From Balneolales bacterium ANBcel1 (GTDB lineage: Bacteria > Bacteroidota > Rhodothermia > Balneolales > Natronogracilivirgulaceae): 64,000 nt of DNA. A program made the position numbers and the translations under genes. The notes under the pieces are model-generated. The model was given only the letters and a program-made list of their open reading frames with translations, was not told the origin of the DNA and did not search any database. This document shows positions 7,169 to 61,656 of this stretch, piece by piece; position 1 is the stretch's first letter, and each line of letters starts with the position of its first letter. The stretch lies in assembly GCA_029688905.1 (NCBI GenBank), contig JARULB010000003.1, forward strand, positions 62,001 through 126,000. Direction: 5' to 3'.

Positions 7169-7233
7169 AATTCTTGCCGAAGCGGGGATGAACAAACTCC
7201 CCGATTGCACAACTGCTGGAATAAAAAGGGGAC

Positions 7234-7265: not shown

Positions 7266-7281
7266 AATTCTTGCGAAATTT

Positions 7282-7356
7282 GGGTGGTTAGCTCAGTTGG
7301 TTCAGAGCACCTGCCTTACAAGCAGGGGGTCACTGGTTCGAATCCAGTACCACCCA
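7282..7356 (+). tRNA. tRNA-Val (anticodon TAC)
   Basis: All four arms can be drawn. The acceptor GGGTGGT pairs with ACCACCC and the discriminator is A. The D-arm is GCTCAGTTGGTTCAGAGC. The anticodon stem CCTGC/GCAGG encloses loop CTTACAA with anticodon TAC. The T-arm is ACTGG-TTCGAAT-CCAGT. The 3' CCA is not encoded. Confidence 0.97.
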
Positions 7357-7365
7357 CACATTCAA

Positions 7366-7409
7366 AAGCCTTGTATCACAATATATTACAGTGATGCAGG
7401 GCTTTTTTT
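7366..7409 (+). terminator. Terminator of tRNA-Val
   Basis: The arms AAGCCTTGTATCAC and GTGATGCAGGGCTT form a long hairpin followed by seven T. Closely related hairpins occur at 9966-10009 and, on the minus strand, at 56158-56203. Confidence 0.85.
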
Positions 7410-7796
7410 ATTTTCGGCTATTTTTATCAACGACCCTTACTTGAATCGGCAAACGCATTTTTTTTTTGCAGTTTTGGCAGCCGACATTCCCCGCAAATGA
7501 CTTGCCATGCCAGCTGCCCGCATTGCGATGTGCGCCCAAACAACTGTTGAGATGCCGGTGTATTGCACCTCAACAGGTTGCAACGCCCGAAGCAGACCCG
7601 CCCCACCTGCGAAAAGTTTCCGAAAGTACTTAAGCTCCAGGCGGTTTCTCCGATAAAAAAATTAGGATTTGCTAACAAATGATTCTGAGGGTCTTTCGCC
7701 ACGGCCGCCAAGTATTCTGATGTAACGAAGTAGTGGGCCTCTGGGAAGCAATTCAGTCAAAATTCATTCAACCCAACCGGTACACGGAGGAAGAAC
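7410..7796. other. Intergenic leader of mcp
   Basis: No credible gene. It contains a sigma-28-like promoter at 7630-7656 and about 140 bases of untranslated leader. GGAGG lies 7 bases before the mcp start. I looked for a cyclic-di-GMP riboswitch in the leader and saw none. Confidence 0.6.
7630..7656 (+). promoter_or_regulatory. Sigma-28 (FliA)-like promoter of the chemoreceptor gene
   Basis: TTAA (7630-7633), exactly 15 bases, then TCCGATAA (7649-7656). The class consensus is TAAA-N15-GCCGATAA, so one base differs in each box and the spacing is exact. This ties the receptor to a flagellar-type regulon. Confidence 0.6.
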
Positions 7797-34459: not shown

Positions 34460-34471
34460 GAATACAGAATG

Positions 34472-37400: not shown

Positions 37401-38641
37401 GCCAGCTCCGCCAGGTCGCGCATATTCCAGTACGCCTCCATATCGGGATCGAAGTCACCCTGATCCGTATAACCGGCAAGGGATTGCGCCAGACCGGGCC
37501 GGGCGAGCGTTCTGGCGACTTTTTCCAGCACAGCGGTACTTTCGAACATCCGCTTCCCGCGCTCGACAACCTCATCCAGCACCTCGGGGTCGACAGCGTC
37601 CTTGTCGAAATGCCTTCTGTGAAATCCGCTCTTTGTTCTAATGGCAAGCATTTCATCATAGGAAAGCGGACGCTTATCCGGTTTTCTGAACCACTGCGGG
37701 TTTGCACGGAAATCCTCGATAAGTGACCGCTCCATCTGTTCCTTCTCGGCCTGCCACTCACCGGCGAGCACCGTCAGTTTGGAGATATACCGCTCCGGAC
37801 TCAGTTCCGCCAGTTCACGGAGCACCTCCTCCCCGAGACCCGCCAGCAATCTCATGAACTTCTCAAAATCCGCTACCGACAGACGTGACAATTGACGCTG
37901 AAGTCCCGGATGTGCTTTGTACTTCCGGTAAAACTCCTTGCGCCACTCCTGCATCCACAACACTTCATCGTACTCCCCAAGCAGCTCAAAAGAGCCTTCC
38001 ACATTCCGGGTGTTCGGCTTGCCGTAATGCCGGTCCAGCCACTCCGGCTGATCCCATATTTCGATGCCGGCCAGCTCGTCCGGGAAGTAATGCAGGATCC
38101 GATTGCAGAATGAGTGGAACGTCGAGATGTAGTTCTTTGAAAACCGGCGCCGTGTCTGCTGCAAGTGCTCCAGTTCGGGATTCAACGGGGATGCTCCTTC
38201 CGGTATCTGCTCTTCGTCGCTCCCGGCATTACCCGAATTCACGGCTTCGGCATGCTGCTTCCCGGTTTCCTGCGGATTGAATTGGTGTGAAGCCGCCGAA
38301 TCCTGCTCGGTGTCAGGCTGTTCCGTGTCACCCTGCTTCCCGCGATCCCGAAGATTGGTCATGTCGGCTTCCCGAACCTGTTCCGGCCCGGCGAGCTGTC
38401 TCTGCTTCTCATTCACGGCCTTGTAGATTCGAGCGCGCATTTCCGCCGCGGCAAAATCGGTAAAAGTGAGCGCGAGCATCCGCTCCAGCGGCACGTTACG
38501 CTCCACCAGCTGATGGATGACCCGTTCGGTGAGGCTGTAGGTTTTGCCCGTTCCTGCACCGGCTTCCAGAATCATATGGCCGCGATGTTTCCGGATCTGT
38601 TCCGTGCGTTCTGCCGGACTCCTGCTATCGCCTTTAGTCAT
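34472..38641 (-). CDS. addA: AddA-like ATP-dependent helicase/nuclease
   Basis: A 1389 aa UvrD-like superfamily 1 helicase fused to a PD-(D/E)XK nuclease. The helicase motifs are Walker A LEAGAGTGKTYS, Walker B LVDEFQDTDSRQWD, GDVKQAIYAFRGGD, TIHGSKGLQFPMVV and YVAVTRAETHLML. The C-terminal nuclease motif is GSIDMILRDRDG then HIVDFKTG. Between them lies a Pro/Glu/Ser-rich region with a 12-residue tandem repeat. It processes double-strand breaks for recombination with AddB. The start is Met 38641 (MTKGDSRSP), 8 bases inside the addB end; a longer open frame to 38761 would overlap addB further. Confidence 0.88.
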   Translation of the reverse strand: MTKGDSRSPAERTEQIRKHRGHMILEAGAGTGKTYSLTERVIHQLVERNVPLERMLALTFTDFAAAEMRARIYKAVNEKQRQLAGPEQVREADMTNLRDRGKQGDTEQPDTEQDSAASHQFNPQETGKQHAEAVNSGNAGSDEEQIPEGASPLNPELEHLQQTRRRFSKNYISTFHSFCNRILHYFPDELAGIEIWDQPEWLDRHYGKPNTRNVEGSFELLGEYDEVLWMQEWRKEFYRKYKAHPGLQRQLSRLSVADFEKFMRLLAGLGEEVLRELAELSPERYISKLTVLAGEWQAEKEQMERSLIEDFRANPQWFRKPDKRPLSYDEMLAIRTKSGFHRRHFDKDAVDPEVLDEVVERGKRMFESTAVLEKVARTLARPGLAQSLAGYTDQGDFDPDMEAYWNMRDLAELALRWHRLIRYMRFDAGCFNYDDMIWLTHTLFENNPDVAGQVRQRFDQILVDEFQDTDSRQWDIIRKIGFDDTPAETGQVPKREVLIVGDVKQAIYAFRGGDVAMMHKAHRDLAAHSGTDPAVVPLDWSFRSNPAIIGFANRLFRQVFETPSGAASYEAPHQPLKTPDPKLSKNAGADGEVRVLRTDYKTLKGHKVEWSVEAEALAERMELLEARRIARFLRQIHDGKVDKYQRITGKMRAGENAVGILYRRRKHFGAMEQALQEVGLTCTVGKGAGFFARSEINDVRLLLAFLLDAYDDVSLTGLLRSPMVSLSDEGLLAVRMAMDAPEHDYPNFWSAVAGFRDWAGDDLDADDLFALSRGVPFLENLRKQVPVRRVSELVEQAFFTDGPWLGAYADDSRTRENLMKLLDVIRSLESGGRGTLFEITGFLSDRIEEEASEPEAELPDPAPIRLMTIHGSKGLQFPMVVIPDMYAGSPEGGVKLNIAPSDGDSSAWPSLAYKQGDRESGNDTEDSFINIVLRSEARKRNAAEMKRLLYVAVTRAETHLMLSLAKPANIGEGGTFAELIKPWLRREEEAAPDARRTGAGLPEPDKPVPDGPPSSPSASGTPHADLDAGQVVICDLTPDELEMLAMMGYRDKAGKAPSGGDTEKASDHQPEKTAGGGAEAMPERSGDAFEPDSDGVPEPDSAYSASGAEAMPVVIDRDNERFRQVDQAVSSEIKTASEGAPAGKPDSSSKPDDKAASDPSRKSGDRADRDLTSKPDEGSAPDFTRKPDDRADPEAPQSGPENAESPAQWIALSPADAGTLVHRTLEMGLVDAAPDIARAFWQRELLRMGYANPDGVARDNSDELMRHCRNAVAWLKSRFSEPLETRFEVAFDLQTRENDRTVTIRGSIDMILRDRDGNDHIVDFKTGPVDTAEISRHVAENGYDRQVAVYRNAYIQLTGKHLPESQVWLLFTAPDEAEPVSLPDISNHT
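35063..35206 (-). repeat. 36-bp in-frame tandem repeat, four units, inside addA
   Basis: Four consecutive 12-codon units read (S/T/P)-S-(S/R/T)-K-(P/S)-(D/G)-(D/E) and vary from one another. The first begins DSSSKPDDKAAS and the last DFTRKPDDRADP. They sit in the linker between helicase and nuclease, so copy number could change without breaking the frame. Confidence 0.75.
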
Positions 38642-41600
38642 TTTTTCCATCCTCCCAGAACGGTTCATCGAGATAGTAACGATCCAGTTCGAACCGAAGT
38701 CCCGTTTCCATCCTCCGTGACAACTCGACATTCTTACGCTGGCGCTGCACCCTCTCGTCATACCTGCTAATGTGACGATAATCCGACCATTTGGGTTGGC
38801 CCGTCAATGAAACATGAAACCGGCCTTCGCGAATGGTCTTCAAAATCCACGAAACCCTCAGGGTTCGGATCGCTTCAAGAAACGCGTCCAGTTCGTCGGC
38901 CATTTTATAATGCAAATATTTGCCGTTTCTGGTCCCCTTGCCGGTGTACACCTTCTCATATATCATCATTTCGGCAGAACCCATCGTGCAGATGCGCTGC
39001 ACATCTTTCTTTTTTCCGTTGATGGGAAGTTTGTAGTAGCCGGCCAGAAAGTGCGGAATTCCCCTTTTCCGTAGGTACATTCCGTACACCGGAAGCTGGA
39101 AACTCAACCCCTTGCAGATACGGCCCTTATAGCTCTGCACACCTGATCCGCCGGATTTGTAATCGTAAATCAGTGCGGCTTTCCCGTCGCCGGAGAGGTC
39201 GATGCGGTCGATCATTCCGCGAAAAACGACATCCACCCCATCCAACCGCTCTTCAAATTCCCAGCTGTGCTCCATGGAAAAGCCGGAACCGGGGTAGAAC
39301 ACCGCGGGCTTGAGATCTGACAGATCCTCATTTATATCAGGATGCGCCTCCTTTTCGACTTCCAAAAACCAGCGTGTAACGCGCTCCAGGTTTTTTTTCA
39401 AAATATCGGGGAACGGGCTTTCGGGATTGCCCATCTGATGCCGGTAATCGCCGACAAGCCGCTCCCGGATGCGTTCCATGCGCTTTTCGGCGGTGCCGGG
39501 ATCCTCCGCAGGCCAAACGGGCGGACCCTCCTGCTCCGTCTCAGTGTAAAATTCCTGCAAAATGTGATGCAGCAGAGAGCCCTTGATATTTGATTCGGCA
39601 TCGTCCTGATACTCATGAAGCGGTTGCAGGCGCAGCATGTACTTGAAAAAAAACTCCTGTGGAGAGGCTGCAAACGAATCCAGACGGCTGATGCTCATCT
39701 TCATCGGGCCGGTATTGTCCCGCTGGGTCCACCACCGTGACATCCACCCGGACCGGATCACCCCGTCGTACCGCCCCATCCGCTCAAAATCCCGGCGCTC
39801 TTGCTGAACGGCAGCGGCCAGCTTCATCTGCCGGATAAACGGCCGGATCTGCTCCCTGAGCTCCGGACCGACCTTTTCCATCACAGAGTTCTCCTCCGGA
39901 ACCTCCGTATGCATCTCAAATAGTGAGGGCTGCCGATTTTTTTCGGATGTCCTTGTTGCGGCATCAGTATCCGGCGCGCCACGACCTGCTCCATCGGCAC
40001 GATGGTTCAGTATCCACAGGGCGATATCCTGCCGGGTGACAAGCGGCGCCCCGGCACCGCCGGTTCGCGGAGTGCGGTCAGGCAGCCGGCTCATGGAACG
40101 GAGTCGGTGACCGGCAAGGCGAACCTGGTCCTCCAGATCCAGCCACAATGGTGAAGGCATGACCGGCTTCTGAGCAACATGGGCCGGGCGGCTGAGGAAA
40201 CGCGGGCGCCCTGATGCCAGCAAGCGTTCAAGCTGACGCCTTGCAATATCATACTCCTCCGTGCCCTCACGGCCCGTAAGCTTGCGAAGCGCCTTCTCAT
40301 AGCGAAACTGCAGAAAGTCGGCACGATCCGGCTTCGGAAATCCTTCCTCATGGAGACCAAGCACATAGACCACCTTGTCATGCACCTCCGGCAGGTGACG
40401 AATTTCCGTAACCAGCACCCCGCCCGGTTTTTCTTCGGGACGCTCCCTGGTCTCTTTCAGCCGAAGCTCCAGCAGCCTGAAAAAATCATTGCGACTGATA
40501 CTTTCTCCAAGGCCGAGGCGCTGCCCGGCGGCCGACAGCTTCTCAAGAATAACTTCCAGAAGCTGGCGCGCTTCGTTTGCTTCCCGGCTCATGAGGTCCC
40601 TTTGCAGGTCCAGGAGTCCGCGGGTCCATTGCACCCAATCGCCCAGCCGCTGCCGGGTTTCGGTCTTATACTGCTCCCGCAACGCTTCCAGATGGCGGAT
40701 GACCTCCCGGTAGAACTCGCGGTCGCGGCGAAGGCCCTCCCTCCGGCGCGTTTCCTTCTCCTCATCCTCTTCCCAGGCAATATGTTCAAGCAGACCGTCG
40801 AATACACGGCCCATCCCCTCCGACACCTCCCGCAAGGTTCGAAAGTTGTAGGCCCGGCAAAACTGTGAAAAATGGCGGATGTTCGGCGCTTTCTGTTCGT
40901 CATGATCCTGCAACTCCGGCAGCACCAGCCTGTTATCGGCAAAAACCCGGAATACGTCATCCACCTGGAAATCGTTGTGATCCAGCTTGAGATAGGTCAG
41001 TATCCTGCGCACAAAAGGATGGCTGATCAGAGAGGGTCCGCGGCTGGTGTACAGCGGCACCCGGAACCGTTCTGAGAGCACCGGAAGCAGCTCTTCGTAC
41101 AGGGAGAGGTCACCGGTGAGAATCACGAAATCGTCGAATCGGGTGGCGGTGCTGTCGGCCGGTGGCGCGTTATCCGGCTGCCCCGACCCGGAGGGCGGCG
41201 ACTCCGATGCCCTGTCATCCACCGCCTGCCCGGATCTGGCTCCGGCGACATCCTCCCGGGAAACCGATGCCAGAATATGGCGCACCGCCTGTTCCAGCTC
41301 TTCGCGGGGATGGTGGAATACATCCATGCCGAGCCTGCCACCCCCGGTATCAGATAACGAATCCTGACGGGGAAGCTCAGTGTGCGGCTTCTCAACCGGT
41401 CGTTCCTCACCGGCATGCGGTACACCGGTTTCGGTTTTTTCGGTGGATGACCCAGCACCCCGACCTCCGGCCGCAACGCCTTTCTTTCCGTACCGGATAT
41501 GAACCATCCGTGGGCCGCCATCTCCGCCATCATCCAGGATGCGGTCAAGTACCTGCTCCTGCAGGGGTGAAAGCTCGTCAATCTGATAGAGCACCAGTTT

Positions 41601-48065: not shown

Positions 48066-48716
48066 TTAAAGCTTGACAGCCAGCAGAATGGCAAAAAACA
48101 GGGCCAGTGCAAAGAAATAATGGATGACTACCGGCATGGTATGACGGATCGGTATCCGGAACAGCGGCCATGAAAGCACAAAGGAGGCGACCGCCCACAT
48201 CCCGTAATTCTGAAGCGGAATATCTCCGTTTCCACCCCAGCTCCAGTATCCCAGCTGAATTGCCACCGGTTCCATAATGAAATCGAATGCTACCGCCAGG
48301 ACGGCCGTTGCCAGGGCGGCGGGCAGGGGCCTTTTCAGGAAACGGCCCGCAATTCCGGCCGCGCCAAGAACCACCATCACCCAGTTCAGCCCAATGATGG
48401 GAGGCACGCCAAGAATAGTACTACCAAGAACATCCCCGTACTCATACGTACCGAACAGCAATCCGGTATAAACCCCGGCGGCTTCGAGCAGGAAAGTGGC
48501 CGCAAACACGACGGCACCCCAAACCATCAGAACCGGACCGGCTTCTCTCATAGCAAACCACAACACGTACGAACTCATCACAAGCAGGGTGTATGGCGTC
48601 ATTGCAAGCATCAGCGGCCGCACGGCTTCAATCAGGTGTCCGGCCACCCCCACCAAAAAAATGATGTAGATGACTCCGTATTTTCCGTATCGGGCAAGGA
48701 TATTCATTTTCTCCAT
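48066..48716 (-). CDS. cruF: Carotenoid 1',2'-hydratase CruF (DUF422)
   Basis: A 216 aa membrane protein with about seven helices. The signatures of the DUF422/CruF family are the Glu-containing helix TFLLEAAGVYTGLLFGTYEYGD, then GVPPIIGLNWVM and AFDFIMEPVAIQLGYWSW. CruF hydrates the psi end of gamma-carotene or lycopene to give a 1'-hydroxyl, the later site of glycosylation. It is the last gene of the carotenoid operon. Related hydratases of bacterioruberin synthesis share the fold, but cruC and cruD nearby favour CruF. Confidence 0.85.
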   Translation of the reverse strand: MEKMNILARYGKYGVIYIIFLVGVAGHLIEAVRPLMLAMTPYTLLVMSSYVLWFAMREAGPVLMVWGAVVFAATFLLEAAGVYTGLLFGTYEYGDVLGSTILGVPPIIGLNWVMVVLGAAGIAGRFLKRPLPAALATAVLAVAFDFIMEPVAIQLGYWSWGGNGDIPLQNYGMWAVASFVLSWPLFRIPIRHTMPVVIHYFFALALFFAILLAVKL

Positions 48717-48824
48717 GGATAATCGCAGGTTAACGGTCCCCGGGAAGCTCCGCCGGCCGCTATAAACTTTTCTTTATGGTGATGATTTTGGATGTTGCAC
48801 CGGGGCCGTATCGCAAATCCCGGG

Positions 48825-50003
48825 TTACACCCTTCTGTCTTTCCAGATGATGCTTCCCTGCTTGGCAGCACGCACAGAACGAATACCAACAATCACGAGA
48901 AACACCATCTGCAGGGGATGCAACAAAACGTTAATCACGGGATTCTGCCGCGATGCTACCGAAGTGAAAAATCGATTCAAAGCGATCGGTACCAGGGCCA
49001 GAAGGAATCCCTGATGATGGAACAACAGAAACAGCGGCAGTGTGAACAGCAGGAAAACGACCGCAAGCATCATCAGAAAACGAAACGGAGTGCTGTTGAA
49101 TCCCGGGAAAAAATTCTTGGTGAACCCGTCGAGTGAGGCGCGCAAACCGGGGTACATGCGGCATGAAACCACTCCGCCGTCGGGTCGCGTGATTACCCGC
49201 TTTCCGTTTTGCTTAAAAATACGAGCCAGCGCCATATCCTCAACAACTTCTCTACGTACGGATTCATGACCCCCAAGCGCTCTGTATGCCCCGGCCCGGA
49301 ATAGCATGAACTGGCCGTTGGCCGCAACAAATGACGGGTCGGAAGAGCGGTAAACCAGTTCCATCGGCAGAAAAGAGAGCAGGATCCAGTTCATGAGGGG
49401 AACAACCAGCCACTCTCCGGCAGTTTGCATCCGCTGTGTAGGGAACAGCGACAGCAGATCGGCGGGATGATCATCCTGGTGCTTTAGCATGGTGGCCAGG
49501 GCATCCGGCTCCAGATGGACGTCAGCGTCGATAAACAGCAGCCGGCGGCCCAGCGCTTTCTGAGAAAGCTGATGGCACGCCCAGTTCTTGCCCAGCCATC
49601 CGTCCGGCAGCGGTCTGCCCTTGAGAAGCACGATTCGATTGTCTTTCGATGCCATTTCCTCCACCACGGAAGCCGTGGCATCTTCAGATTGGTCATCAAG
49701 CACCAAAATTTCGATAGGGCGGACCGACTGCCGGCTGACGCTTTCCAGGCACGCCGCGATGTTATTCTCTTCGTTGCGGGCCGGAATCAGCACTGAAACC
49801 AGCGGCGCGTTATCCGCACTTGCCGGATCGGGGTCACCTTCGGTGGCTAACGCGGAAATACCGGACGGGGACCTGGCTCCGGCAAATTGCTTGATCAACC
49901 GGCTGAACGACAGCGCCCGGACCATATTAATCAAACCCACCACTGCGGGGACAGCCGTAAAAAACAGAAAAAGGATAAGGATCAGGGTAAGGGCCATGTT
50001 CAC
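48825..50003 (-). CDS. cruC: Carotenoid glycosyltransferase, GT2 family (CruC-like)
   Basis: A 392 aa processive-type GT2 enzyme with an N-terminal TM (about 1-25). The GT-A domain has VSVLIPARNEENNIAACLES, VLDDQSEDAT, LFIDADVHLEPDAL (DxD-like) and VVEDMALARIFK. There are two or three C-terminal TM helices. Together with the acyltransferase gene it overlaps (ATGA, 50000-50003) and the CruF gene downstream, it most likely attaches a sugar to the 1'-hydroxyl. Diapocarotenoid glycosyltransferases are the alternative. Confidence 0.8.
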   Translation of the reverse strand: MNMALTLILILFLFFTAVPAVVGLINMVRALSFSRLIKQFAGARSPSGISALATEGDPDPASADNAPLVSVLIPARNEENNIAACLESVSRQSVRPIEILVLDDQSEDATASVVEEMASKDNRIVLLKGRPLPDGWLGKNWACHQLSQKALGRRLLFIDADVHLEPDALATMLKHQDDHPADLLSLFPTQRMQTAGEWLVVPLMNWILLSFLPMELVYRSSDPSFVAANGQFMLFRAGAYRALGGHESVRREVVEDMALARIFKQNGKRVITRPDGGVVSCRMYPGLRASLDGFTKNFFPGFNSTPFRFLMMLAVVFLLFTLPLFLLFHHQGFLLALVPIALNRFFTSVASRQNPVINVLLHPLQMVFLVIVGIRSVRAAKQGSIIWKDRRV

Positions 50004-50659
50004 CGGGCGAGCAGGTCTTGCATGGATGCGGCGGAACGGGAAGCCTCATCCAGCCGATCCAGGTTTTCGTTGAAGGCATGTTCGAAAACACGAAAATCTT
50101 CCACCACGTTTCGGGCGGGAATCAAGGCACCGGAGCGGAAATAGACGGAGGGGAGGCGCTCATTCTCATACTGAATTTTTGTCGCCGCTACCAGCACCTG
50201 CACATGCTCCGGGGCATCGCCGAGAAACAGGCGGAGCCCTTTTTTGACGTTCGGCGGCCTTTTGTCATACGGCTCAATCTCTCCCTGCGGGTAGATCACC
50301 GTAAGGAGGCGGGGATCCGCAATTTGCTTGCGGGTGTACCGGACGGCCTGCAACAAGCTCGCCGGTTTGTCGGGATTAATAGAAAAAGCGCCCAGATAGC
50401 GGAAGAAAGAGTAGCGAGCAAGCTGCCGTTCGAGCATCATAAGCCGAATGCCCCGGTTGGTATATCGGCGCATGACGAAATCCACAAAAAAACCGTCCCA
50501 CCAGGAGTAGTGATTGGGCGTTACGACCAGGCCCGCCTTGCGATCCCATTCCGGCAGCGCGTTCACCATATGGAAACGGGAAAAATGCCTCCGCATCAGA
50601 AAAGAGAGGTAGGGGTTGAAAACACGACGTGCCCACCGGTTGTTAACTGCCTGGATCAT
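50000..50659 (-). CDS. cruD: Acyltransferase, PlsC-like (CruD-like carotenoid glycoside acyltransferase)
   Basis: A 219 aa protein of the lysophosphatidate-acyltransferase fold with the catalytic NHxxxxD motif in TPNHYSWWDGFFVD and the second motif in VIYPQGEIEPYDKRP (canonical FPEGT is altered). It is translationally coupled to the glycosyltransferase gene. In Chlorobaculum the pair CruC/CruD adds glucose and then a fatty acid to the carotenoid, and the same order is inferred here. Confidence 0.78.
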   Translation of the reverse strand: MIQAVNNRWARRVFNPYLSFLMRRHFSRFHMVNALPEWDRKAGLVVTPNHYSWWDGFFVDFVMRRYTNRGIRLMMLERQLARYSFFRYLGAFSINPDKPASLLQAVRYTRKQIADPRLLTVIYPQGEIEPYDKRPPNVKKGLRLFLGDAPEHVQVLVAATKIQYENERLPSVYFRSGALIPARNVVEDFRVFEHAFNENLDRLDEASRSAASMQDLLAR

Positions 50660-50777
50660 ACGGTTTATCTAATGCTGCTTCATGGATTTATGATTTCGGG
50701 ATCGTGTTTGGCTTTTGTTCGCATAGCGGAGCCGATTCCCGGCTCAACCACCCTTCCGGCAGCCCTCTGTCCGGTGC

Positions 50778-52271
50778 TCAGGTATTCATCCGGCCACCAA
50801 GATACCGTTCTGCGGCGTGTTTTCCGGAAAGCAGCACCAGCGGGATTCCGCCACCGGGATGAACGCTTCCTCCGCAGAAAAAGAGTCCGTTCACGTCTTT
50901 CGACCGGGCAGACTGACGAAGAAACGCTGCGTCCCTGGAATTGGACGAAATGCCGTACAATCTACCATTCAGGCTGCCTGTCTGCCGCTCAATATCGGAG
51001 GGCGTCATCACCTGCTCACTGACAATGCGGCCGGAGATATCCTCCCCGAGCATGGATGAGATTTTCTTCTGCACGATCCCGCGCATGCGATCGGTGCCGG
51101 GATAACGGCCTTCGGCGCTGTTTGCCGGGCTGTTGACCATCACGTACCAGTTTTCATGATCCGGTGGCGCATCATCCGATTTATATCTCGAGGAGATGTG
51201 AATATAGACCGTCGGGTCATCGGGACAGCGGCGGTGCCGGAACATGTCGTCAAACTCTTTCCGGTAATCGGAGGAGAACAGGATGTTGTGGCTGCCGAGC
51301 CGCTCTTCGTTACCGCGCATTCCCCAGTAAAACACCGTTGCCGAGGAGGAGCCTTCCTGTCTGAAATAGCGGCGCGCTTCCTTGCCTTCCGGGTTCTTAA
51401 GCAGTTTGGTGAAGGTGGTTCCCGCATCCACGTTGGAGAAAACGGCATCATACGAAGCGATTTCACCGTTCACTTTGAGTCCGGTTACTTTTCCGTCACG
51501 GTGGATGATCTCCTCCACCCCGGTATTGTAGTGAATCGACACCCCCTGCGAAGCGGCAATGGAAGCCAGTGCCTTGGGCAGCATGTGGACTCCTTCACGG
51601 ATGTAATAACCGCCCATGCGGTATTCCACGTGGGATATGATATTCAGGGTTGCCGGTGCGGTATACGGGTTGGATCCGTTGTAGGTGGCGTAGCGGTCGA
51701 ACAGCTGGACAATCCTCGGATCGCGGAAAAAGGAGGCGTTGGCCTGATGCATGGTGCGAAACGGATCAATTCGCCGGATCTTCAGAAGTGTCTTAAAAGC
51801 CTGGAGATTCACAAAAGATGACCAGTGCCGGAAATCGTTGAACAGAAAGAGGTCCGCGGTAAGGTCGTAGATAGTCTTGCAATGATCCAGGAAGCGGGTT
51901 ACCGCCTCGGCGGGTTCACCGGTCACCCGTTCGATCTCGGCCGCCAGGGCATCGCTATCGGAATGGGCGTCCAGGCGGGTTCCGTCTGGATAGAAATAGC
52001 GGCAGAGGGTGTCGAGCCGTTCCAGGGTAAGGTGCCGGTCTGCCTTCTCTCCGGCCAGTTCAAAAAGGGACGTAGCGACTTCAGGGAGGGTCAGGAGCGA
52101 CGGACCCGAGTCGAACCGAAATGGTCCGTCTACGATCTCACCGGCCTTGCCGCCGGGCACGGATCCTTTTTCGAAAATATCGACCGGGATGCCTCTTGCG
52201 GCCAGATGCAGCGCCGCGGATAGCCCTCCAAGTCCGGCTCCTATGATTGCAACGGGGTTTTTCCGGGCCAT
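50778..52271 (-). CDS. crtD: CrtI-family carotenoid desaturase, CrtD-like (3',4'-desaturase)
   Basis: A 497 aa FAD enzyme. The dinucleotide-binding motif VAIIGAGLGGLSAALHLAARG is at the N-terminus and the C-terminal FAD motif FFCGGSVHPGGGIPLVLLSGK near 475. The GGSVHPGxGIP form is closer to CrtD than to CrtI, and the operon has a separate CrtI. With CruF it would insert a 3',4' double bond next to the 1'-hydroxyl, lengthening the chromophore. Its start overlaps the cyclase gene by 31 bases. Confidence 0.78.
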   Translation of the reverse strand: MARKNPVAIIGAGLGGLSAALHLAARGIPVDIFEKGSVPGGKAGEIVDGPFRFDSGPSLLTLPEVATSLFELAGEKADRHLTLERLDTLCRYFYPDGTRLDAHSDSDALAAEIERVTGEPAEAVTRFLDHCKTIYDLTADLFLFNDFRHWSSFVNLQAFKTLLKIRRIDPFRTMHQANASFFRDPRIVQLFDRYATYNGSNPYTAPATLNIISHVEYRMGGYYIREGVHMLPKALASIAASQGVSIHYNTGVEEIIHRDGKVTGLKVNGEIASYDAVFSNVDAGTTFTKLLKNPEGKEARRYFRQEGSSSATVFYWGMRGNEERLGSHNILFSSDYRKEFDDMFRHRRCPDDPTVYIHISSRYKSDDAPPDHENWYVMVNSPANSAEGRYPGTDRMRGIVQKKISSMLGEDISGRIVSEQVMTPSDIERQTGSLNGRLYGISSNSRDAAFLRQSARSKDVNGLFFCGGSVHPGGGIPLVLLSGKHAAERYLGGRMNT

Positions 52272-52933
52272 TTTTCGGATATCAGATGGTATATGAGCAC
52301 GTGAAATGAGAGCATGGAGATGGAGTAGGCAAAGTCCTCCAGGGGTATGGTGGTGACACGAATGCCTGAAAACGCCTCCGGATTGTAGGTAACGACCGGC
52401 GTTGAGGTGAGCACGTAATTGACTGCCAGAAACGGCACCAGGGTAAACACGATAAAGCTCCAGAAGACACCCGAGTAGAGCAGTGATTCACGCACGAGCA
52501 GCGCGGCTGCGATGAATGCCGCCCAGGCAAAAAGAACGGTGGCCGTGTAATGCTGCCCAAGGTTCAGTATTGCATTGATTACCAGAACGACAAGCAGTGT
52601 GACAAATACGATCCGGGAAACCGGCAGGCGAAATTCCGGCATAAACGTTCGAAAATTTTCGTAGATAAACAGGCAGGCGAAGGGGATGGTGATGAAAAAC
52701 ATCACCTCTTCGAGAGGCAGGCCAAACAGCGACACACCCAGGATATAATCCGGGTTGAATGCCCAGTCGCCGCGCCGGGTGGCGATCACATCCCAAATCA
52801 CATACACGGTGCCTACGATCAGTATGGAACCCAGCACCGCGGGAAACTTCCTGTAGAACTGAACTTTGCGTTCAAAAGAAAACGCAAGAGGTACGGCGAT
52901 AACAAGAATGTTAATCAGAAGATAGAGACTCAT
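52241..52933 (-). CDS. crtY: Lycopene cyclase, CrtYcd (two-domain membrane type)
   Basis: A 230 aa protein with about seven TM helices and two copies of the membrane lycopene-cyclase domain. The acidic active-site motif is FGLPLEEVMFFITIPFA in the first half and TTIPLEDFAYSISMLS in the second. This is the archaeal/fungal/Bacteroidota type, unrelated to the flavin CrtY. It forms the beta ring of gamma-carotene. It overlaps genes on both sides, so the operon is tightly coupled. Confidence 0.88.
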   Translation of the reverse strand: MSLYLLINILVIAVPLAFSFERKVQFYRKFPAVLGSILIVGTVYVIWDVIATRRGDWAFNPDYILGVSLFGLPLEEVMFFITIPFACLFIYENFRTFMPEFRLPVSRIVFVTLLVVLVINAILNLGQHYTATVLFAWAAFIAAALLVRESLLYSGVFWSFIVFTLVPFLAVNYVLTSTPVVTYNPEAFSGIRVTTIPLEDFAYSISMLSFHVLIYHLISEKWPGKTPLQS

Positions 52934-53594
52934 GCGCTTTCAATTTTTCGTGCAGCTGTATCATTTCCTTTTGCTGCGAGTCGTCAAGCCGGCCTGATTC
53001 GATGATAAACTCCATAAGGTTACATGCCATTTGCACATCCATATGCTGGAACTGTTCCTGATTGACCAGCAGTTCAAAAACAGCCTGTGTGTCCTCATCC
53101 AGCTGGTCTCCGTATCCCAGAAACGAAGGCAGGTGATGGAGTACGGAAAAACGCAGAAAACGGATTTCGAATTCCCCCGGGCTCCTGTCGGTGGCTTCAT
53201 CGAGTGTCTGCAATCCGCTGCGAAGATTGGAAAGCCTGGCGAACGGGTTTCTTCCATGTTTTGCCAGGAGCGTCTTGGTGGCTCCATGGTAGGCCAGAAT
53301 TACCGGGTAGGTTGACAATACCTCCTGGTCCAGCTGATTTTCAAAAAAGTCGGTCAGCCTCTGGGTCACCGCCCGGCTCTCCACGGCATCATAAAACGTG
53401 TCCCTGATATACGTCATCATGTGAGGGTAAATGAAGTGGATAAAAGAGTCCCCCAGCCCGGAAACAACCATACCGGCATCGGCATCAGGCACCTCCTTGC
53501 CGACTTCGGTTGCAGAACCGCTTTCCGTTCCGGCAGCGCTTCCCGTGGCAGTCACCACCGTGAGCAATAATATGACAAAAACAGTTCTGGTCAT
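52911..53594 (-). CDS. Secreted protein of unknown function inside the carotenoid operon
   Basis: A 227 aa protein with a signal peptide (about 1-20) and an otherwise mostly helical, soluble sequence (FIHFIYPHMMTYIRDTFYDAV, LSTYPVILAYHGATKTLLAKH, FLRFSVLHHLPSFLGYGDQL). No enzyme motif recognised. It is 12 bases after crtB and overlaps crtY by 23 bases, so it is co-translated with the pathway. As a periplasmic helper it could bind or transport the pigment, but that is only an inference from position. Confidence 0.75.
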   Translation of the reverse strand: MTRTVFVILLLTVVTATGSAAGTESGSATEVGKEVPDADAGMVVSGLGDSFIHFIYPHMMTYIRDTFYDAVESRAVTQRLTDFFENQLDQEVLSTYPVILAYHGATKTLLAKHGRNPFARLSNLRSGLQTLDEATDRSPGEFEIRFLRFSVLHHLPSFLGYGDQLDEDTQAVFELLVNQEQFQHMDVQMACNLMEFIIESGRLDDSQQKEMIQLHEKLKAHESLSSD

Positions 53595-53606
53595 GGGTTA
53601 CTCTCT

Positions 53607-54440
53607 CTATCGCAGAAACCGAACGGTGACCAGCGAGCGGATCAGCATCACCATTTTCCGGATGTTGGAAAGGCGAACGCGACGTGCCATCAGTTCGTTA
53701 ATCGATTTTTTGCGGATCTTGGAAAAAAGGCTGCTGTAAAATACGTACGCCAGGTAAACTCCCAAACGGGAACTTGCCGGCAGCGCCTTGATTCCGGGCA
53801 GCGCCTGTCTAAAATCCTCCTCTATTTCGGATTCAAACTTTCGCTTTTCTTCTTCATCGAGCGACATCGGGTCCGGCACATCCGGCAGATAAATCCGTTT
53901 TCGTTCGTTCAGATCGCTTTGAATATCACGAAGGAAATTGACTTTCTGGAAGGCCGCGCCAAGAGCTCGGGCATGGGGCTTGAGCCGGGTGTACAGCGCA
54001 TCGTCATCCTCGCAAAAAATCCTGAGGCACATCAGGCCCACCACCTCCGCGGATCCATAGACATACCGGTCAAACAATTCCCGTCCGTAGGTCTGCTCTG
54101 TGAGGTCCAGCTCCATGCTGAAAAAAAACGCGTCGATATGCTCCCTTTCGATCCCGTACCGATTCACCGTTTTCTGAAAGGAATGGAGGATGGGATTCAC
54201 GGCGATCTTCCGTTCGATCGCATCGGAGGTATCCGCCCTGAACCGCTCGATAAGCTCTTTCTTGTCGTGACCGTGAAACGTATCCACAATTTCGTCGGCC
54301 AACCTGACAAATCCGTACAGGGCATAAACCGGTTCGCGAAACTTTCGGGCAAACAACCGTATCCCCATGCTGAATGAGGTGCTGTACCGGTTGGTGACCA
54401 GTCTGCTTACCTCAAAGCTTGTCTTCGAATAGAGATCCAT
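53607..54440 (-). CDS. crtB: Phytoene synthase CrtB
   Basis: A 277 aa head-to-head prenyl synthase that joins two geranylgeranyl diphosphates. The first Asp-rich site is in YGFVRLADEIVDTFHGHDK and the second in ALGAAFQKVNFLRDIQSDLNERKRIYLP. Start MDLYSKTSFEVS. It overlaps crtI by 29 bases. GGPP synthase (crtE) is not in the window. Confidence 0.96.
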   Translation of the reverse strand: MDLYSKTSFEVSRLVTNRYSTSFSMGIRLFARKFREPVYALYGFVRLADEIVDTFHGHDKKELIERFRADTSDAIERKIAVNPILHSFQKTVNRYGIEREHIDAFFFSMELDLTEQTYGRELFDRYVYGSAEVVGLMCLRIFCEDDDALYTRLKPHARALGAAFQKVNFLRDIQSDLNERKRIYLPDVPDPMSLDEEEKRKFESEIEEDFRQALPGIKALPASSRLGVYLAYVFYSSLFSKIRKKSINELMARRVRLSNIRKMVMLIRSLVTVRFLR

Positions 54441-55956
54441 GATCCTCGGATATACGTTCCAATACCAGTTTTGAACTGATGATTACCATCGGCAGCCCGG
54501 TTCCAGGAACCGTTGAAGCGCCTACATAATACAAATTGTCGAACTTTTCGTCTTTGTTCCGGGGCCGGAAGCCTCCGACCTGGTTCATGCCGTGTGCCAG
54601 ACCGAGTCCGGAGCCTTTGTACAGGTTCAGCTGGTCGGCCCAGTCGTCCGGCCCGAGCGTTATCTGGAGGCGCTTGTTCTTCTGGATGTCGAACCCGACG
54701 CGGCTTGACAGATCGTCGATGATTCGCTCGGCCAGAACCTCCTTGTCGGACCAGTCTTCCTTGAACCTCAGATCCGGCACCGGACAGAGAACAAACACGT
54801 TTTCGCAGCCCGGCGGGGCGCTGCCCTCGTAGGATTTGGACGGCACATTGACATAGTAGTAGGGTTGCCGCGGACTCTCCGACGAGGTGAACAGGGTATT
54901 GGCATAATCTCGGTAGTTGCTGCCCAGGAAGTAATTATGGTGCATGAGCCGTTCGATTTTCCCCTCCACACCCAGGTAGATGGTAAACGGTGCCAGGGTC
55001 CAGTCCATCTTGTCGAGCCGCTCCTCGCTGTACCGGGGGCGCTTCAGCACCTCACCCCTGAAGGCGGCGGCATCGGCATTGGCGACGACCAGGTCGGCAT
55101 CCCACCGTTTGCCGTTTTTATCTACAACTGCCTGCAAACGGCCATTGGAAGAAACTGTCTCCGTAATTTCGGTATTGCAGACGATTTCCACATTGCGCTG
55201 TTTCAGAATGCGCACAATCTCTTCGACGAGCCGGTACATCCCCCCTTCGATGATCCAGTAGCCGTCATGTTTCAGCTCCGTATAATTCAGGATGGAGTAG
55301 ATGGCGGGTGTACGGAACGGGGTTGAGCCAAGAAAAAAGGCGATCAATGAGAAAATGATACGAACCTCCTCTGAGCGGAAGGTGCGTTCCAGCTCCTGCC
55401 AGATGTTTCTGAAAAGATAGGGAATATGGCGGGGCGGCACTTTGGTCAGTCCGGCCAGATATTCAAAATTATTGCGGAAGTTCCGTTTGACGATACGGTG
55501 TTCTGTGTCGTGAAAGATCTGGCCTGCGCGCTTAAGGTATCGCTCGGCTTTTTCGGCGAAGCCCGGTTCCAGATCACCGAACTCCTTTTCCAGCTCTCTG
55601 AGATCGTATTTTATGAGAAACGGATCTTTGCGCCCTTCAAAAAACACCTGGTAGAGCGGATCGAGTTGTTTCAGAGTAACGGGGAGATCCAGTCCGCAGC
55701 TGTCGAACAGCTCCTTCATTTCGTAGGTCATGCTCATGAAAGAGGGACCCATATCGAACGTAAACCCGTCCTGTTTGATCTGGTTCAAGCGACCGCCGGG
55801 AGTCGCGTGTTTTTCCAGGATGGTAATTTGGTGCCCGGTTGATGACAGGCGGAGGGCGGTGGAGAGTCCGCCAAGCCCGGAACCGATGATTACAATTTTT
55901 TTCTTTTCCAATGTCAGGCCGATTTGGTTGTCGTGAAATAGTCTGTTTTCAAACAC
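54412..55956 (-). CDS. crtI: Phytoene desaturase CrtI
   Basis: A 514 aa FAD-dependent desaturase that converts phytoene to lycopene. The N-terminal FAD site is KIVIIGSGLGGLSTALRLSS and the C-terminal signature YYVGASTVPGTGLPMVIISSK. The frame opens at a GTG (55956); a TTG at 55911 would start the protein just before KKKIVIIG, which is nearer to homologues, so the N-terminus is uncertain. It heads the eight-gene carotenoid operon. Confidence 0.95.
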   Translation of the reverse strand: MFENRLFHDNQIGLTLEKKKIVIIGSGLGGLSTALRLSSTGHQITILEKHATPGGRLNQIKQDGFTFDMGPSFMSMTYEMKELFDSCGLDLPVTLKQLDPLYQVFFEGRKDPFLIKYDLRELEKEFGDLEPGFAEKAERYLKRAGQIFHDTEHRIVKRNFRNNFEYLAGLTKVPPRHIPYLFRNIWQELERTFRSEEVRIIFSLIAFFLGSTPFRTPAIYSILNYTELKHDGYWIIEGGMYRLVEEIVRILKQRNVEIVCNTEITETVSSNGRLQAVVDKNGKRWDADLVVANADAAAFRGEVLKRPRYSEERLDKMDWTLAPFTIYLGVEGKIERLMHHNYFLGSNYRDYANTLFTSSESPRQPYYYVNVPSKSYEGSAPPGCENVFVLCPVPDLRFKEDWSDKEVLAERIIDDLSSRVGFDIQKNKRLQITLGPDDWADQLNLYKGSGLGLAHGMNQVGGFRPRNKDEKFDNLYYVGASTVPGTGLPMVIISSKLVLERISEDHGSLFEDKL

Positions 55957-56389: not shown

Positions 56390-59300
56390 TTATTTGATTA
56401 CGGTCATCCGCCGGGTTTTACTGAACTCCGGGGTGGTCATGCGGTAGATGTAGACACCACTGGCCAGGTTCGAGGCATCAAATTGCACCGTGTGGGTACC
56501 GGCCGTCATCTTATCGCTAACCAGTACTGCCACCCGGCGGCCCAGTATGTCGTAGACCGTCAGGCGCACATCGACCTGCTCGGGCAACTCAAACTGGATG
56601 GTGGTAACCGGGTTGTAAGGATTCGGATAGTTGCGGTGCAACGTCAACTTGTCGGGTGTTTCTTCTGCCAACTTCTTCCGGGCCCGTTCTACCCCCTCGG
56701 CGATTTGCTTTCCGTACATGTGGTCAATATGTTTGGCCAGTTCGAAATCAGGGTAACGTACCATGAGTTCCCCGAAATAACGGGCGCCTTGATGAACGCT
56801 TCCCAAGCGATTGAAGTGTATATAACCCAAACCAAAAAGTGCATTTTGGTGTAACATCGAATCTTCAGAAAAAAACTCATTGATATATTCATAATTCTTC
56901 ACAGCCTGTTTATAATTCCCACCACGTATCAAAAATTGGCTTTCAAGGTCCATAATGACCGCATACAGGCGATCTGTGTTGGAAAGACTGCTTCGAATCT
57001 GACGATCCATGTAGTTGGAAAAGTCCTGAACCCGACCTTGCTGCTGCCAGGCCTTGGCCATCACATGCAAAATAGTACTGCGCAGTTTAAATGATTCTGC
57101 CTCTTTATATAAACGTTCCAAATGAACAAGAGCTTCTTCAGTTTCCTTTTCTGCTAATAAGACAAGTACCTCATATAAATCCTGTTCATTTATTTCAGAT
57201 TCTGCTTCAGTCTGATACCCACCTGCTACTTTAGGAGATACAGGGTCACACTGCAAATTCGATGGAGTCCATATATGACAGGCATTTTGTGATGTTGATG
57301 CGGGATTGTATGAAATAAAGCCACCAGATGATGTTGTGAAATTGGAGGCACTTGGTGAAGAACTCCCATACCAATTATTTTGACCATATACCCAGGCATT
57401 ATTTGCAGCAGATATATGAAAACCCGGGTCATGGTAAGTCCAAAAATCATTATTCGAAAAACTGACCACTCCGGGACTCAAAGCATTAATTCCGGTTGGA
57501 TTATTGGCAAGCACATTAAAATACATCGTATTCACTGTAGCACCGACCATTTGAATACCCCGCAGTGAATTCCCAAAAATTTCATTTCCAACTAAATGTA
57601 TATCAGAATATATGGAAGCGATACCGGTCGAATTATTATTTAGTTTGCTGTACTCAATCGACATGGATGCATAGCCAAAATATACACCAGTATTATTATT
57701 CTTGATTTTTGAATTTGTTATTTCTGGTGAGGCACCATTGGCATATACGCCATTATTAGCATGGCGGATATCACAATAATTAAGATATCCCGAAGAGCCA
57801 GGCTGAAATTGGACTCCTGACCACCCCCCGGAAGAACCGGTTTGTTGTAAATAAATATAACCGAATCCTGATCCACCATTAAAATATGCGTGTCCATATA
57901 TGGTAAAACCCTGATCAGGGTCAAAACGCAAATCTGCTCCGGGACGGATTTCAATTTCCCCGCCACTGTCCACCAAAAACCGGGTAGCGTCGGAGGTGGT
58001 GCCTTCGAGAATAATGACCTTTCCGCCATCGCGTACCCGGATGCGGCCGCCTTCGATATTGGTTCCACTATCAATGGTTAGCGTGCCGTCTACCCGAAGC
58101 TCCCCGTAGACAGTAGTATTAGACCAGAAAGCCTCATGCATTACGATCTCATCAGACATGGCTACCGAGGCACCGCTTTGGATGGTTACGGTGCGGCTGG
58201 GATTTATCGTGGTGGTGCCGGTGTATGTGCTGGTGTTAATGGTTTCACTGGAAGTGAAGGTGTGGTCTTGGTGAAAATGAGACAACGGACTACCCACTAT
58301 CGAAAAAGCGATTGTTATGGCTCCATCTTGATTGATATTTGGGTAGTAACCGGCTTGGTCTAATTTCTTGGGTACATAATCATACTGTTGATAATCCCAA
58401 ATGTACATTTCAACATCAAAACCCTCGTTATCCACATTTGTAATTTCCACCGATTTGGCATAGCGATCATAATTATTAACAGGATATTTACTGAAACTTA
58501 CTCTTTCAAGGGAAATTGGTGCCCCGGAAGTACCATTGTAGCGTAACCATACATCCGGTTGCGATATTAACTCCTCATTAAAATCCACTCTCAGCACAGC
58601 TTTCTTTAACTGCGCTGATGTTATTTGCATCTGAGGATGAATAGGCATTGAGCTTTGATCATATCCTTTTAATTCCACGGTTGTATTTTCATTAGGAAAA
58701 ACCGGCTGTACATCAATGACCTCTACATTATTGGCGGTGCTTACTTCATAATGATGGATATCATTGGTGCTCACAAAATCAAGGGCTGCCTCAGCGTTGA
58801 TATATCCCGCGCCTAATGCGGAGTCGTGACCTGGAGCTACATCACCCGCTGTTAATTTCAGAACTTTCTGGATGTCTTCGGGTTTTAAATCCGGGTTCAC
58901 ATCCAGCATTAAACTGGCCACACCAGCCCCGATCGCGGCCGCGGCGTATCCACCACCAAAACTCGTGGTATAACTGTCTGTCGCCTATCCGGTTGTAGCC
59001 GCCACATTTTTTCCATAGGCCGCCACATCGATATAGTCGGCTTCGTGGCCGTTATTAAATGATATGAAATTTTGACTATCATCCATATACCCGCCGGCAA
59101 CCGTAAGCGTGGATTTGTCCATGGAACCAGGGATCAGATAGTATTTTTGATCGGTGCCCGGAGCAATCTCCCCGGCCGCCGCCACCTTTAGCTGATCGGC
59201 CATATACGCATCGATAAGCCTTTCCCGAAACTGGACATGGGCGGCCGGCGGTGTATAACCGGAATAAAACAGGCCTTCGAATGCCTGGGACAGTATGCTA

Positions 59301-59971
59301 CGTATCATGTCCAGCATTCTCTCCTCTGGTGTTGGTGGAAGTTCCGGATAGAATAAGTCATCCATTGAGGGCAAATCTGCCATTTCATAAATCCCTAATT
59401 CCAAAACCGGCAAAGACTCAATATCATCTATACGGGAGGTTGGCAGACCGAATCCAAAAAGATGTATGTCGTTTTCATCATCGATGGCCTGTTGCACCAT
59501 TGTCGTGGCTTCTTCAAAGCCGGCATAGTAGTCGGTATTATCCCACGAAAATATAAAATCCGAATCATCACCCGAAGCCGCCTCCCGAAGGAAACTGTAA
59601 GAGCGCATATTTGCCGCCCAGTTGATCCCGGCAATACCGATACCGTTATCGACATTTGCCCCCAAAATTCCGGCCATTTCGGTGCTGTAATCCTGTTCTG
59701 GCATAAACAGCCCGGCATGATACGGATTGGCATAAAAACGACCCTGCATATCTTCATGCACCGCTGAAGCCCCCAGAAGAGAATGTATGGCAATGCGTTG
59801 ATCGCTATGGCCTGTCGTAAAATTCCAGGCCTGGTCAATGTTATGCACTTCGAATAAATAATCCTGCGAGCCATCCATGACATAGGGATCATTCGTTTGC
59901 CCATGCGCGTTGTGGGCATTTGCAAACCAGTATATGGTTACTGCTGCTAACCAAAAGTATATTGTTTTCAT
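56390..59971 (-). pseudogene. Subtilase-fold protein with lost catalytic triad, beta-helix and T9SS sorting domain; interrupted by an in-frame TAG
   Basis: One 1193-codon frame is broken only by TAG at 58987-58985. The N-terminal part (59971-58988) has a signal peptide ending near AHGQ and a subtilase-like domain. The His loop HGTHVAG reads YSTEMAG, the Ser loop GTSMAAPH reads GGYAAAAI, and the Asp strand IAIHSLLGAS lacks Asp. After the stop come the rest of the subtilase core, a right-handed beta-helix-like repeat region (about codons 560-860), a helical TPR-like part, and a T9SS type A domain (NYPNPYNPVTTIQFELP to the end). The peptidase was inactive before the stop arose, or the stop is read through. 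Confidence 0.8.
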
Positions 59972-60022: not shown

Positions 60023-61132
60023 CTACCTCTCTATGGATACCGGGATAGGGTCTTGTGTGGATAAATCGGGAAATTCGGGTAGATAGCCGGGCAGGTCCGG
60101 CCAGAGCGGTTCGGTCTGGCCGGTTTCCAGGTTATGGCGAAAAGGCACATACTGCGTGCGGCCATAGCCGTATATATCCCGCAGAAAAATGAGCTCTGTG
60201 CTGTCATGGTTCCAGCTGACGGCCCCGGAACCTCCCGTGGTGATTTGTACCGGGTCGTTATCCCCATCGTATAAAAAAAGCTGCATGGAGTTATCCCAAT
60301 GTTTGTTAACCGCGATGCGCTCCGAGCGGGGATCGGCACTAAAGGTACGAAGCACCCCGCCTGTACTATTTCCCGCTCCCAACTGATACATGGTCACCCA
60401 CTGCCAGTCGCCGGTAGTTCGGTCGTACCGTACCATATTCATAGCAATATCATTTTCCGGATCTGCATGCTGACCCCAAATTATTTGTTCATGATTACCG
60501 AACATATTGCTGGATCTCCAATCCGTCACCGGGCCTTCAAATTCTCCGGTTTCTATATCCAGAAAGTATCCGCCCAAATCATACTCTTGCTGGTAGGAAA
60601 TAGTGTTCACCGTAAACAATATCTTTTCATCATTGGCAAACCACTTGGGAAAAACCTCACTCTGTTTGTTAAATATCGGATGATCGGGCTGGCCCGTCCA
60701 CTGCTTATAGCTGTTTTCTTCCAGGTTTAAGGTGACTATATACGAGCTTATTCCCAGGGATAAGCCGACGGCCAACTCCCGGTTATCCATCGACCAGTCG
60801 GCATTGTAGATCTGGGAGGTGATATAGCGGGGATTTTCTCCGTTTTTATCCACGATCCAAAGCTGATGATACGGAGCAAACGGTTCATCGGCCGGCCTGT
60901 GCCGTACAACATAATAGTGTTGCCCATCATTACTTTGGCCGATATTAAACAAAGATTCCACTCCTTCCGGCGCGCTTCCCCATCCATACTCGCCCGGCTC
61001 AAACGGGTCTTCCCACTGGAAGGGGTCATCCCAGGGGCTTTCCTCCTCCACGCCATCATTATGATCCACGGTATCACAGGCCGAAAACAAAAACAGAAGG
61101 GGTATTATATGGGGTGGTAATTTTAACATCAT
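60023..61132 (-). CDS. Beta-propeller (PD40/TolB-like) lipoprotein
   Basis: A 369 aa protein with lipobox LFSAC at about residue 19 and an acidic Trp/Pro-rich linker (EEESPWDDPFQWEDPFEPGEYGW). Repeated blades of the TolB/PD40 kind follow: QLWIVDKNGENPRYIT, SQIYNADWSMDNRELAVG, SEVFPKWFANDEKILFTV, TFSADPRSERIAVN, GAVSWNHDSTELIFLRD. Such propellers usually bind proteins or peptides. It lies 51 bases upstream of the pseudo-subtilase on the same strand, so they may be co-expressed. Confidence 0.82.
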   Translation of the reverse strand: MMLKLPPHIIPLLFLFSACDTVDHNDGVEEESPWDDPFQWEDPFEPGEYGWGSAPEGVESLFNIGQSNDGQHYYVVRHRPADEPFAPYHQLWIVDKNGENPRYITSQIYNADWSMDNRELAVGLSLGISSYIVTLNLEENSYKQWTGQPDHPIFNKQSEVFPKWFANDEKILFTVNTISYQQEYDLGGYFLDIETGEFEGPVTDWRSSNMFGNHEQIIWGQHADPENDIAMNMVRYDRTTGDWQWVTMYQLGAGNSTGGVLRTFSADPRSERIAVNKHWDNSMQLFLYDGDNDPVQITTGGSGAVSWNHDSTELIFLRDIYGYGRTQYVPFRHNLETGQTEPLWPDLPGYLPEFPDLSTQDPIPVSIER

Positions 61133-61254: not shown

Positions 61255-61656
61255 TTATTGCGTTTGTAAACTCTGCTCTTCCCTTATATCAGCTACAAGC
61301 ACGCTTGTGCACAAGAATTTCAGGTCTGGTTCTCTAACCGACATCACTATTGAAGGATAATGACTCATGGGATTGACACCCGAATATTCCAGATTCAGAT
61401 CATCCATCAAATGTAACAGTTGCTCATGCCTGGCTTCGATTTGCTCACGTTGTTCAGCAGCCTCTTCTTCGCTTAGCAAGCCTTCCCGGGAGTATTCCAT
61501 ATCATGAGTTACCCATATCCGAAGTGAACCCTTATCCCGAATCTTTTCAAACAACTCCTCATCGCAATGATTGAAGCCTTCATTGTTTTGCGAAAGTATG
61601 CTGTCGCAACTGTTGGAAAGCAGCATTGATATTATTATCAGTGATACTTTTTTCAT
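61255..61656 (-). CDS. Small exported protein resembling a stand-alone subtilase propeptide (I9-like inhibitor)
   Basis: A 133 aa protein. The hydrophobic signal sequence has a weak lipobox (LLSNSC). The remainder follows the beta-alpha-beta-beta-alpha-beta order of subtilase propeptides: strand LRIWVTHDM, helix SEEEAAEQREQIEARHEQLL, strand LEYSGVNPMSHYPSIVMSV, short helix REPDLKFLCTS, strand VLVADIREE. Spacing and small motifs (EGLLS, AAEQR, P-SIVM-V, VLVADIRE) agree with I9 domains fused to bacterial subtilases. The pseudo-subtilase nearby has no propeptide of its own. The assignment is by eye only. Confidence 0.6.
   Translation of the reverse strand: MKKVSLIIISMLLSNSCDSILSQNNEGFNHCDEELFEKIRDKGSLRIWVTHDMEYSREGLLSEEEAAEQREQIEARHEQLLHLMDDLNLEYSGVNPMSHYPSIVMSVREPDLKFLCTSVLVADIREEQSLQTQ

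Follow-up and report, generated by a model that had tools for sequence, protein, structure and literature searches.

A triad-less subtilase-fold protein, predicted to be exported by type IX secretion, encoded beside a propeller-type lipoprotein in a Balneolales genome

Results

Gene organization of the locus

The stretch of DNA analyzed (64,000 nucleotides of Balneolales bacterium ANBcel1, referred to here as the window) carries on its minus strand a subtilase-like gene with a single in-frame stop codon, preceded by two lipoprotein genes in the same orientation. Residue positions are given in subtilisin numbering (Asp32, His64, Asn155, Ser221), and the roles of these residues are presumed to be those generally accepted. 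The features are as follows.

56390..59971, minus strand: pseudo-subtilase gene, approximately 1193 codons if the in-frame TAG is read through; PF00082 match of 48 bits for the joined core
59900..59971, minus strand: N-terminal signal peptide of approximately 24 residues, from the translation read by eye
58769..59893, minus strand: subtilase-fold domain of 375 residues (predicted structure below)
59780..59782, minus strand: Ser at the Asp32 position (alignment A5)
59687..59689, minus strand: Tyr at the His64 position (alignment A5)
59168..59170, minus strand: Glu at the oxyanion Asn155 position (alignment A5)
58985..58987, minus strand: in-frame TAG stop, codon 329, cutting the frame ahead of the Ser loop with no frameshift needed
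58946..58948, minus strand: Tyr at the Ser221 position (alignment A5)
57383..57787, minus strand: NosD-type beta-helix region (PF05048, 31.3 bits, cut-off 23.6)
56402..56629, minus strand: type IX secretion (T9SS) sorting tail (TIGR04183, 46 bits, cut-off 23; also PF18962)
60023..61132, minus strand: partner gene for a PD40-propeller-type lipoprotein, 51 bases upstream; lipobox FSAC by pattern, no Pfam match of its own
61255..61656, minus strand: small lipoprotein resembling the propeptide of active subtilases, one gene further upstream in the same direction as the pair

The frame of the pseudo-subtilase gene runs from an ATG at 59971 to the TAG and then stays open to a TAA at 56390, the TAG being the sole stop in the joined frame. 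The read-through protein would consist, in order, of the signal peptide, the subtilase-fold domain, the beta-helix and the sorting tail. The PF00082 score of the joined core lies well above the cut-off of 21.8, whilst the part ahead of the stop falls under the Pfam cut-off when taken alone. A mature subtilase-like N-terminus follows directly after the signal peptide and there is therefore no space for a prodomain. The C-terminal sorting domain, together with a SprA protein encoded in the same genome (TIGR04189, 1582 bits, cut-off 200; SprA was the T9SS component searched for), places the protein among type IX cargo (type A). Its C-terminal end reads RRMTVIK and lacks a KLIKK motif. The genome contains two PF00082 matches, the pseudo-subtilase and one subtilase with an intact triad on another contig. 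Separately, a run of genes at 48066-55956 on the minus strand resembles a carotenoid cluster by eye, with two CrtI-like desaturases, a CrtB-like synthase, cyclase and CruF-like proteins, a glycosyltransferase and an acyltransferase.

Loss of the catalytic residues and predicted fold

The first-pass annotation of this DNA had described a subtilase core in which the His loop reads YSTEMAG, the Ser loop reads GGYAAAAI and the Asp strand has no Asp. All three segments were located, with the Asp strand IAIHSLLG at 59771-59794, the His loop at 59669-59689 and the Ser loop at 58931-58954, the last lying beyond the TAG and just outside the interval of 58960-59971 that the annotation had covered. Alignment A5 comprised the joined window domain, two relatives and 56 other subtilases, the latter being 56 of 60 listed references (L085, L072:4817, L101 and L071 were omitted). 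At the four positions the other subtilases had D in 55/56, H in 55/56, N in 56/56 and S in 56/56, and the window domain had S/Y/E/Y. Since these columns are near-invariant in the 56 other proteins, chance or misalignment is excluded as the source of the difference, and the alignment showed no complete triad elsewhere in the window domain. These data indicate that loss of the triad is real, complete and, by comparison with the relatives described below, ancient. The sole exception row in A5, L077, had G and Y at the Asp and His positions and retained Ser; this Lachnospiraceae subtilase domain (L077:7959-8765) appears to be another partial pseudo-subtilase.

The joined domain, with the TAG read as Gln, was modeled by AlphaFold2 with a pLDDT of 84.1 and a pTM of 0.85 from an input alignment dominated by active subtilases, so that the input itself partly determines the fold. 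The best structural match was mirolase (8ehe_A; VIA-align Z 36.6, 2.6 A over 290 residues), with thermitase at Z 35.2, and no different fold emerged. A model built from three family rows alone was unusable (pLDDT 32.5). A family-specific insert at model residues 157-183 was modeled at low confidence. The window domain is thus predicted to have the subtilase fold, and the PF00082 match and the similarity to mirolase both bear out the core proposed in the first-pass annotation.

A family of triad-less relatives

A class-wide search for homologues with the same triad loss, which the first-pass annotation had suggested, identified relatives in 9/244 class genomes (the window genome, G042, G144, G129, G189, G202, G175, G077 and G192). 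All nine matched PF00082. In a quick tree of 57 rows a single branch (SH-aLRT 98) separated them from the other rows, and the window copy paired with that of G042 (86). For this tree, domains of poor coverage or odd length were filtered out, loci already representing family members were skipped and the first 48 rows passing were kept.

The catalytic positions of the nine proteins were changed in a largely common manner. The Asp position held Ser in 8/9 and Gly in the remaining one, with Asp in none, and no member had His at the His position. Ser was kept at the Ser221 position in G077 only. An acidic residue occupied the Asn155 position in 8/9, with Asn retained in G202, and Glu stood at the second His of HGTH in six of the seven closest members. 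In all nine, as read by eye from translations, the mature-type domain starts within approximately 54 residues of the start codon, signal peptide included, so the family has no prodomain. A sorting tail was detected by model in 8/9, the exception being G077. Identity of the window copy to any relative in the core was 39% or less.

Further searches defined the range of the family. A single-protein scan of genome contigs found no relative, whilst an alignment-based scan of contigs returned two true family members (L033 and L034) among general subtilases. A plasmid search gave no match. In a phylum-wide sample, 7/395 genomes matched at 1e-25, no triad-less member was found outside the class, and the two new matches, G210 and G493, had intact triads. 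Among open-licence PubMed Central papers, none was found that reports a triad-less subtilase for Bacteroidetes or as T9SS cargo. The window gene appears from these comparisons to belong to an old clade of non-cutting, T9SS-exported subtilase-fold proteins, in which the loss is shared by distant relatives. Loss of the oxyanion Asn and absence of the prodomain are further losses that the first-pass annotation did not contain, nor did it contain the propeller partner.

The propeller lipoprotein partner and neighboring genes

Relatives of the partner protein were present in 16/244 class genomes (1e-8). A propeller gene adjoins the pseudo-subtilase gene on the same strand in all nine family genomes, and no family member lacking an adjacent propeller gene was found among the nine. 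In seven of these genomes the adjacent gene encodes a close relative of the window partner, and in G077 and G192 a divergent PD40 protein. PD40 scored above the Pfam cut-off in the partners of G144, G129, G042, G077 and G192, with no match in the window partner. The partner lies downstream rather than upstream of the pseudo-subtilase in G042. Most of the 16 partners tested had a lipobox pattern close to the start, with none in G144 and doubtful early matches in G129a and G042. The partner itself is broken or fragmentary at a second locus in G192 and in G193 and G133. In G189 and G202, two tandem copies of the propeller lipoprotein gene (L125, L126) stand ahead of the pseudo-subtilase.

Subtilases with an intact Asp-His-Ser triad and a PD40 gene upstream were found in G210, G493, G081 and G024. 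In G210, G493 and G024 the mature domain is preceded by a long N-terminal stretch, as a prodomain would need, and the open frame of G081 begins inside this stretch. In G210 a second propeller protein, a close relative of the window partner, is encoded one gene further upstream. The partners of three of these four active relatives, like those of G077 and G192, are remote PD40 matches only to the family of the window partner. Holding the pseudo-clade together with the four active proteins gave a likelihood gain of 9.09 (p-AU 0.695), so that descent from propeller-subtilase pairs is compatible with the data and not proven by them. A Zixibacteria locus (L042, approximately 6550-8950) has, by eye, a PD40-like lipoprotein gene upstream of a subtilase, and the pair may therefore exist beyond the phylum; the subtilase of this locus has an in-frame stop between its prodomain and protease domain.

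The small lipoprotein at 61255-61656 has no Pfam family. It is related to the N-terminal propeptide region of the G010 and G028 subtilases and to stand-alone copies in G003, G059, G069 and G008. Relatives were not found in the other family genomes and it is therefore not counted within the pair. It was considered as the family's own lost prodomain and rejected, as it resembles propeptides of other subtilases (G010 and G028) and was not found elsewhere in the family. Its position as a free-standing propeptide-like lipoprotein next to a dead subtilase hints at an inhibitor.

Interruption, loss and constraint of the pseudo-subtilase gene

Three of the nine family genes carry a single in-frame stop, TAG in the window and TGA in both G175 and G042. 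The first-pass annotation had not recognized the window stop as one of three independent nonsense changes. The TGA of G175 lies inside the domain and that of G042 between the domain and the sorting tail. Six further loci keep an open partner gene together with remnants of the pseudo-subtilase or nothing. Approximately 49 N-terminal codons are left at second loci in G129 and G131, both gene ends in G136 and the tail end in G135 and G198. Comparison of G131 with G129 (96% identity, same genus) showed the gene to be cleanly missing with the flanks otherwise continuous; the clean absence (L124 8815-11154 versus L142 6788-6790) leaves the gene start after an intact partner. G046 has a partner gene and no trace of the pseudo-subtilase. 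These observations indicate that the pseudo-subtilase gene is loss-prone and, judged from its genomic distribution, dispensable in several lineages.

The window TAG may be a sequencing or assembly error in an intact gene, which we consider a real possibility, short of an even chance. It is an isolated change, and the lack of a second stop limits neutral change since the first to approximately 92 substitutions or 2.6% per site (95% bound, indels ignored); moreover, all three interrupted copies come from multi-contig assemblies. However, two other lineages have the same kind of interruption at other places in the gene, which makes a real nonsense change plausible, and the window showed no further long gene with a clear interruption. 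A same-frame pair of reading frames at 31853-38803 split by a TAG was examined as a second interrupted gene and rejected, since the two frames read as distinct genes. As it stands, the window copy would yield no more than a truncated, unsorted fragment, so it represents either a recently inactivated allele or an error in the sequence.

Selection was estimated from Nei-Gojobori pN/pS counts on the three closest intact pairs. These gave pN 0.278, pS 0.617 and omega 0.27 for G144-G189, pN 0.289, pS 0.670 and omega 0.22 for G144-G202, and pN 0.290, pS 0.739 and omega 0.12 for G189-G202. Omega for the partner gene in two of the same pairs was 0.24 and 0.16, the third pair being saturated. Other pairs without an interrupted copy were saturated or nearly so (several with pS > 0.72), and the evidence for constraint is consequently limited to the closest intact subclade. 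The dN/dS analysis that had been proposed thus gave pN well under pS in three pairs but is impossible on the window copy itself, its relatives being at most 39% identical in the core with synonymous sites saturated or nearly saturated. The closest intact members are shown by these counts to be under purifying selection, over three pairs whose synonymous sites are near saturation.

These values bear on whether the family is a decaying relic, functionless everywhere since activity was lost, with its intact copies not yet broken by chance. The interrupted members and the six loci with remnants or nothing are what such decay would produce. Internal stops within the matched core were present in 2/9 family members and in 0/150 of the best subtilase matches listed for the class (Fisher p 0.003), a control that leans to healthy genes, being drawn only from the best-scoring subtilases among the matches listed; stops inside matches outside the family occurred at three places (G028 twice, G090). 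However, six members are fully open in very distant genomes at 27-61% identity, where neutral genes would not stay open, and the closest three are about as constrained as their partner. General decay is therefore disfavored and we regard it as unlikely. The earlier description of a pseudoprotease that has been kept consequently holds for the family as regards the pseudoprotease; retention holds for some lineages, where the closest intact members are under purifying selection, but not for others, where the gene is interrupted or deleted and its neighbor stays.

Discussion

The reading that we consider reasonably probable is that the window gene represents a clade of dead, type IX-secreted subtilase-fold proteins derived from an active propeller-linked subtilase and serving as the surface binding module of a propeller-subtilase pair. 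The clade most likely arose from a working subtilase with a prodomain, whose gene stood next to that of a PD40-propeller lipoprotein. From this state the prodomain, the oxyanion Asn and the whole Asp-His-Ser triad would have disappeared, whilst the fold persisted along with the sorting tail and the neighboring partner gene. The protein is presumably delivered to the cell surface, where a fold that no longer cuts would still present a cleft and a surface and could act through binding, with a peptide, a protease, an inhibitor and the partner propeller as conceivable ligands. The propeller lipoprotein is the first binding candidate since it is the stable neighbor. As an accessory module, the pseudo-subtilase could be dropped by a lineage that keeps the partner.

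Three other proposals are less probable, in decreasing order. The first, which is distinctly doubtful, takes the propeller lipoprotein and the exported subtilase as a surface pair genetically resembling an effector and its guard. Catalysis and prodomain would have been lost first, and a conserved pocket, with Ser for Asp and an acid for the oxyanion Asn, would bind a ligand, a competitor protease or an inhibitor, the pseudo-subtilase being gained and lost under changing pressure as the guard lipoprotein stays. The second, that the protein has remained an enzyme by way of a new active site, built for example from the conserved Ser in place of Asp32 together with acids (Asp68, Glu72, Asp/Glu242) around the old center, draws on the same substitutions and on the Glu in the HGTH segment; however, a nucleophile-base pair is not recognizable, and Asp68 and Glu72 are missing from G175 and are not retained by G077 or G192, so that we judge it very improbable. 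Suppression or recoding of the stop to give full-length protein is scarcely credible: the frame is open for 864 codons beyond the TAG, but TAG is an ordinary stop that ends 8/27 long ORFs in the window, including the pseudo-subtilase and partner genes, which lends no support to a changed genetic code, and the family's three stops vary in both codon and position.

The surface binding module that we favor allows the function of a dead protease on the cell surface to be asked of a defined family, with its stable propeller neighbor as a concrete candidate for binding. In this separate clade a secreted protein has lost its full set of catalytic residues along with the prodomain, and the triad-keeping propeller-linked relatives of the clade, along with the Ser-only intermediate G077, make the order in which the protease parts were lost testable. 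Turning of a bacterial protease fold to ligand binding has a reported counterpart in MamO, said to be a repurposed serine protease that binds metal in magnetite formation.

In the papers found, what is known of bacterial pseudo-subtilases comes mainly from a single spore former and its Csp proteins. CspA and CspC of Clostridioides difficile are described as subtilase-fold pseudoproteases that signal by interaction, without cutting, beside an active sibling (PMC6636752). Both systems have a bacterial subtilase fold with catalytic residues lost. According to the same text, two of the three residues are replaced in the Csp proteins, which retain their prodomain, contain a jelly-roll insert and function in spore germination (PMC6636752), whereas the window family has lost all three residues and the prodomain and has a T9SS tail and a propeller-lipoprotein partner.

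A second parallel is provided by Tannerella mirolase and the other KLIKK proteases, for which a potempin lipoprotein gene is reported directly ahead of the subtilase gene and, for miropsin/potB2, the protease gene is reported to vary more in sequence than the inhibitor gene (PMC7296668). A lipoprotein gene adjoining a T9SS subtilase gene is common to both arrangements, but mirolase is active, whilst the partner described here is of PD40 type and the KLIKK end is missing. The T9SS subtilases of Bergeyella are described as normal active enzymes with a propeptide-inhibited state (PMC11982257). The NCBIfam entry NF052323 (T9SS-dependent M6-like inactivated metalloprotease) also denotes, by its name, an inactivated protease as T9SS cargo; it has another protease fold, however, and the family proteins match this model only via the sorting tail. 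The active propeller-linked subtilases of G210, G493, G081 and G024 share with the family the upstream PD40 gene, the T9SS-type tail and the homologous domain, and differ from it by their intact Asp, His and Ser.
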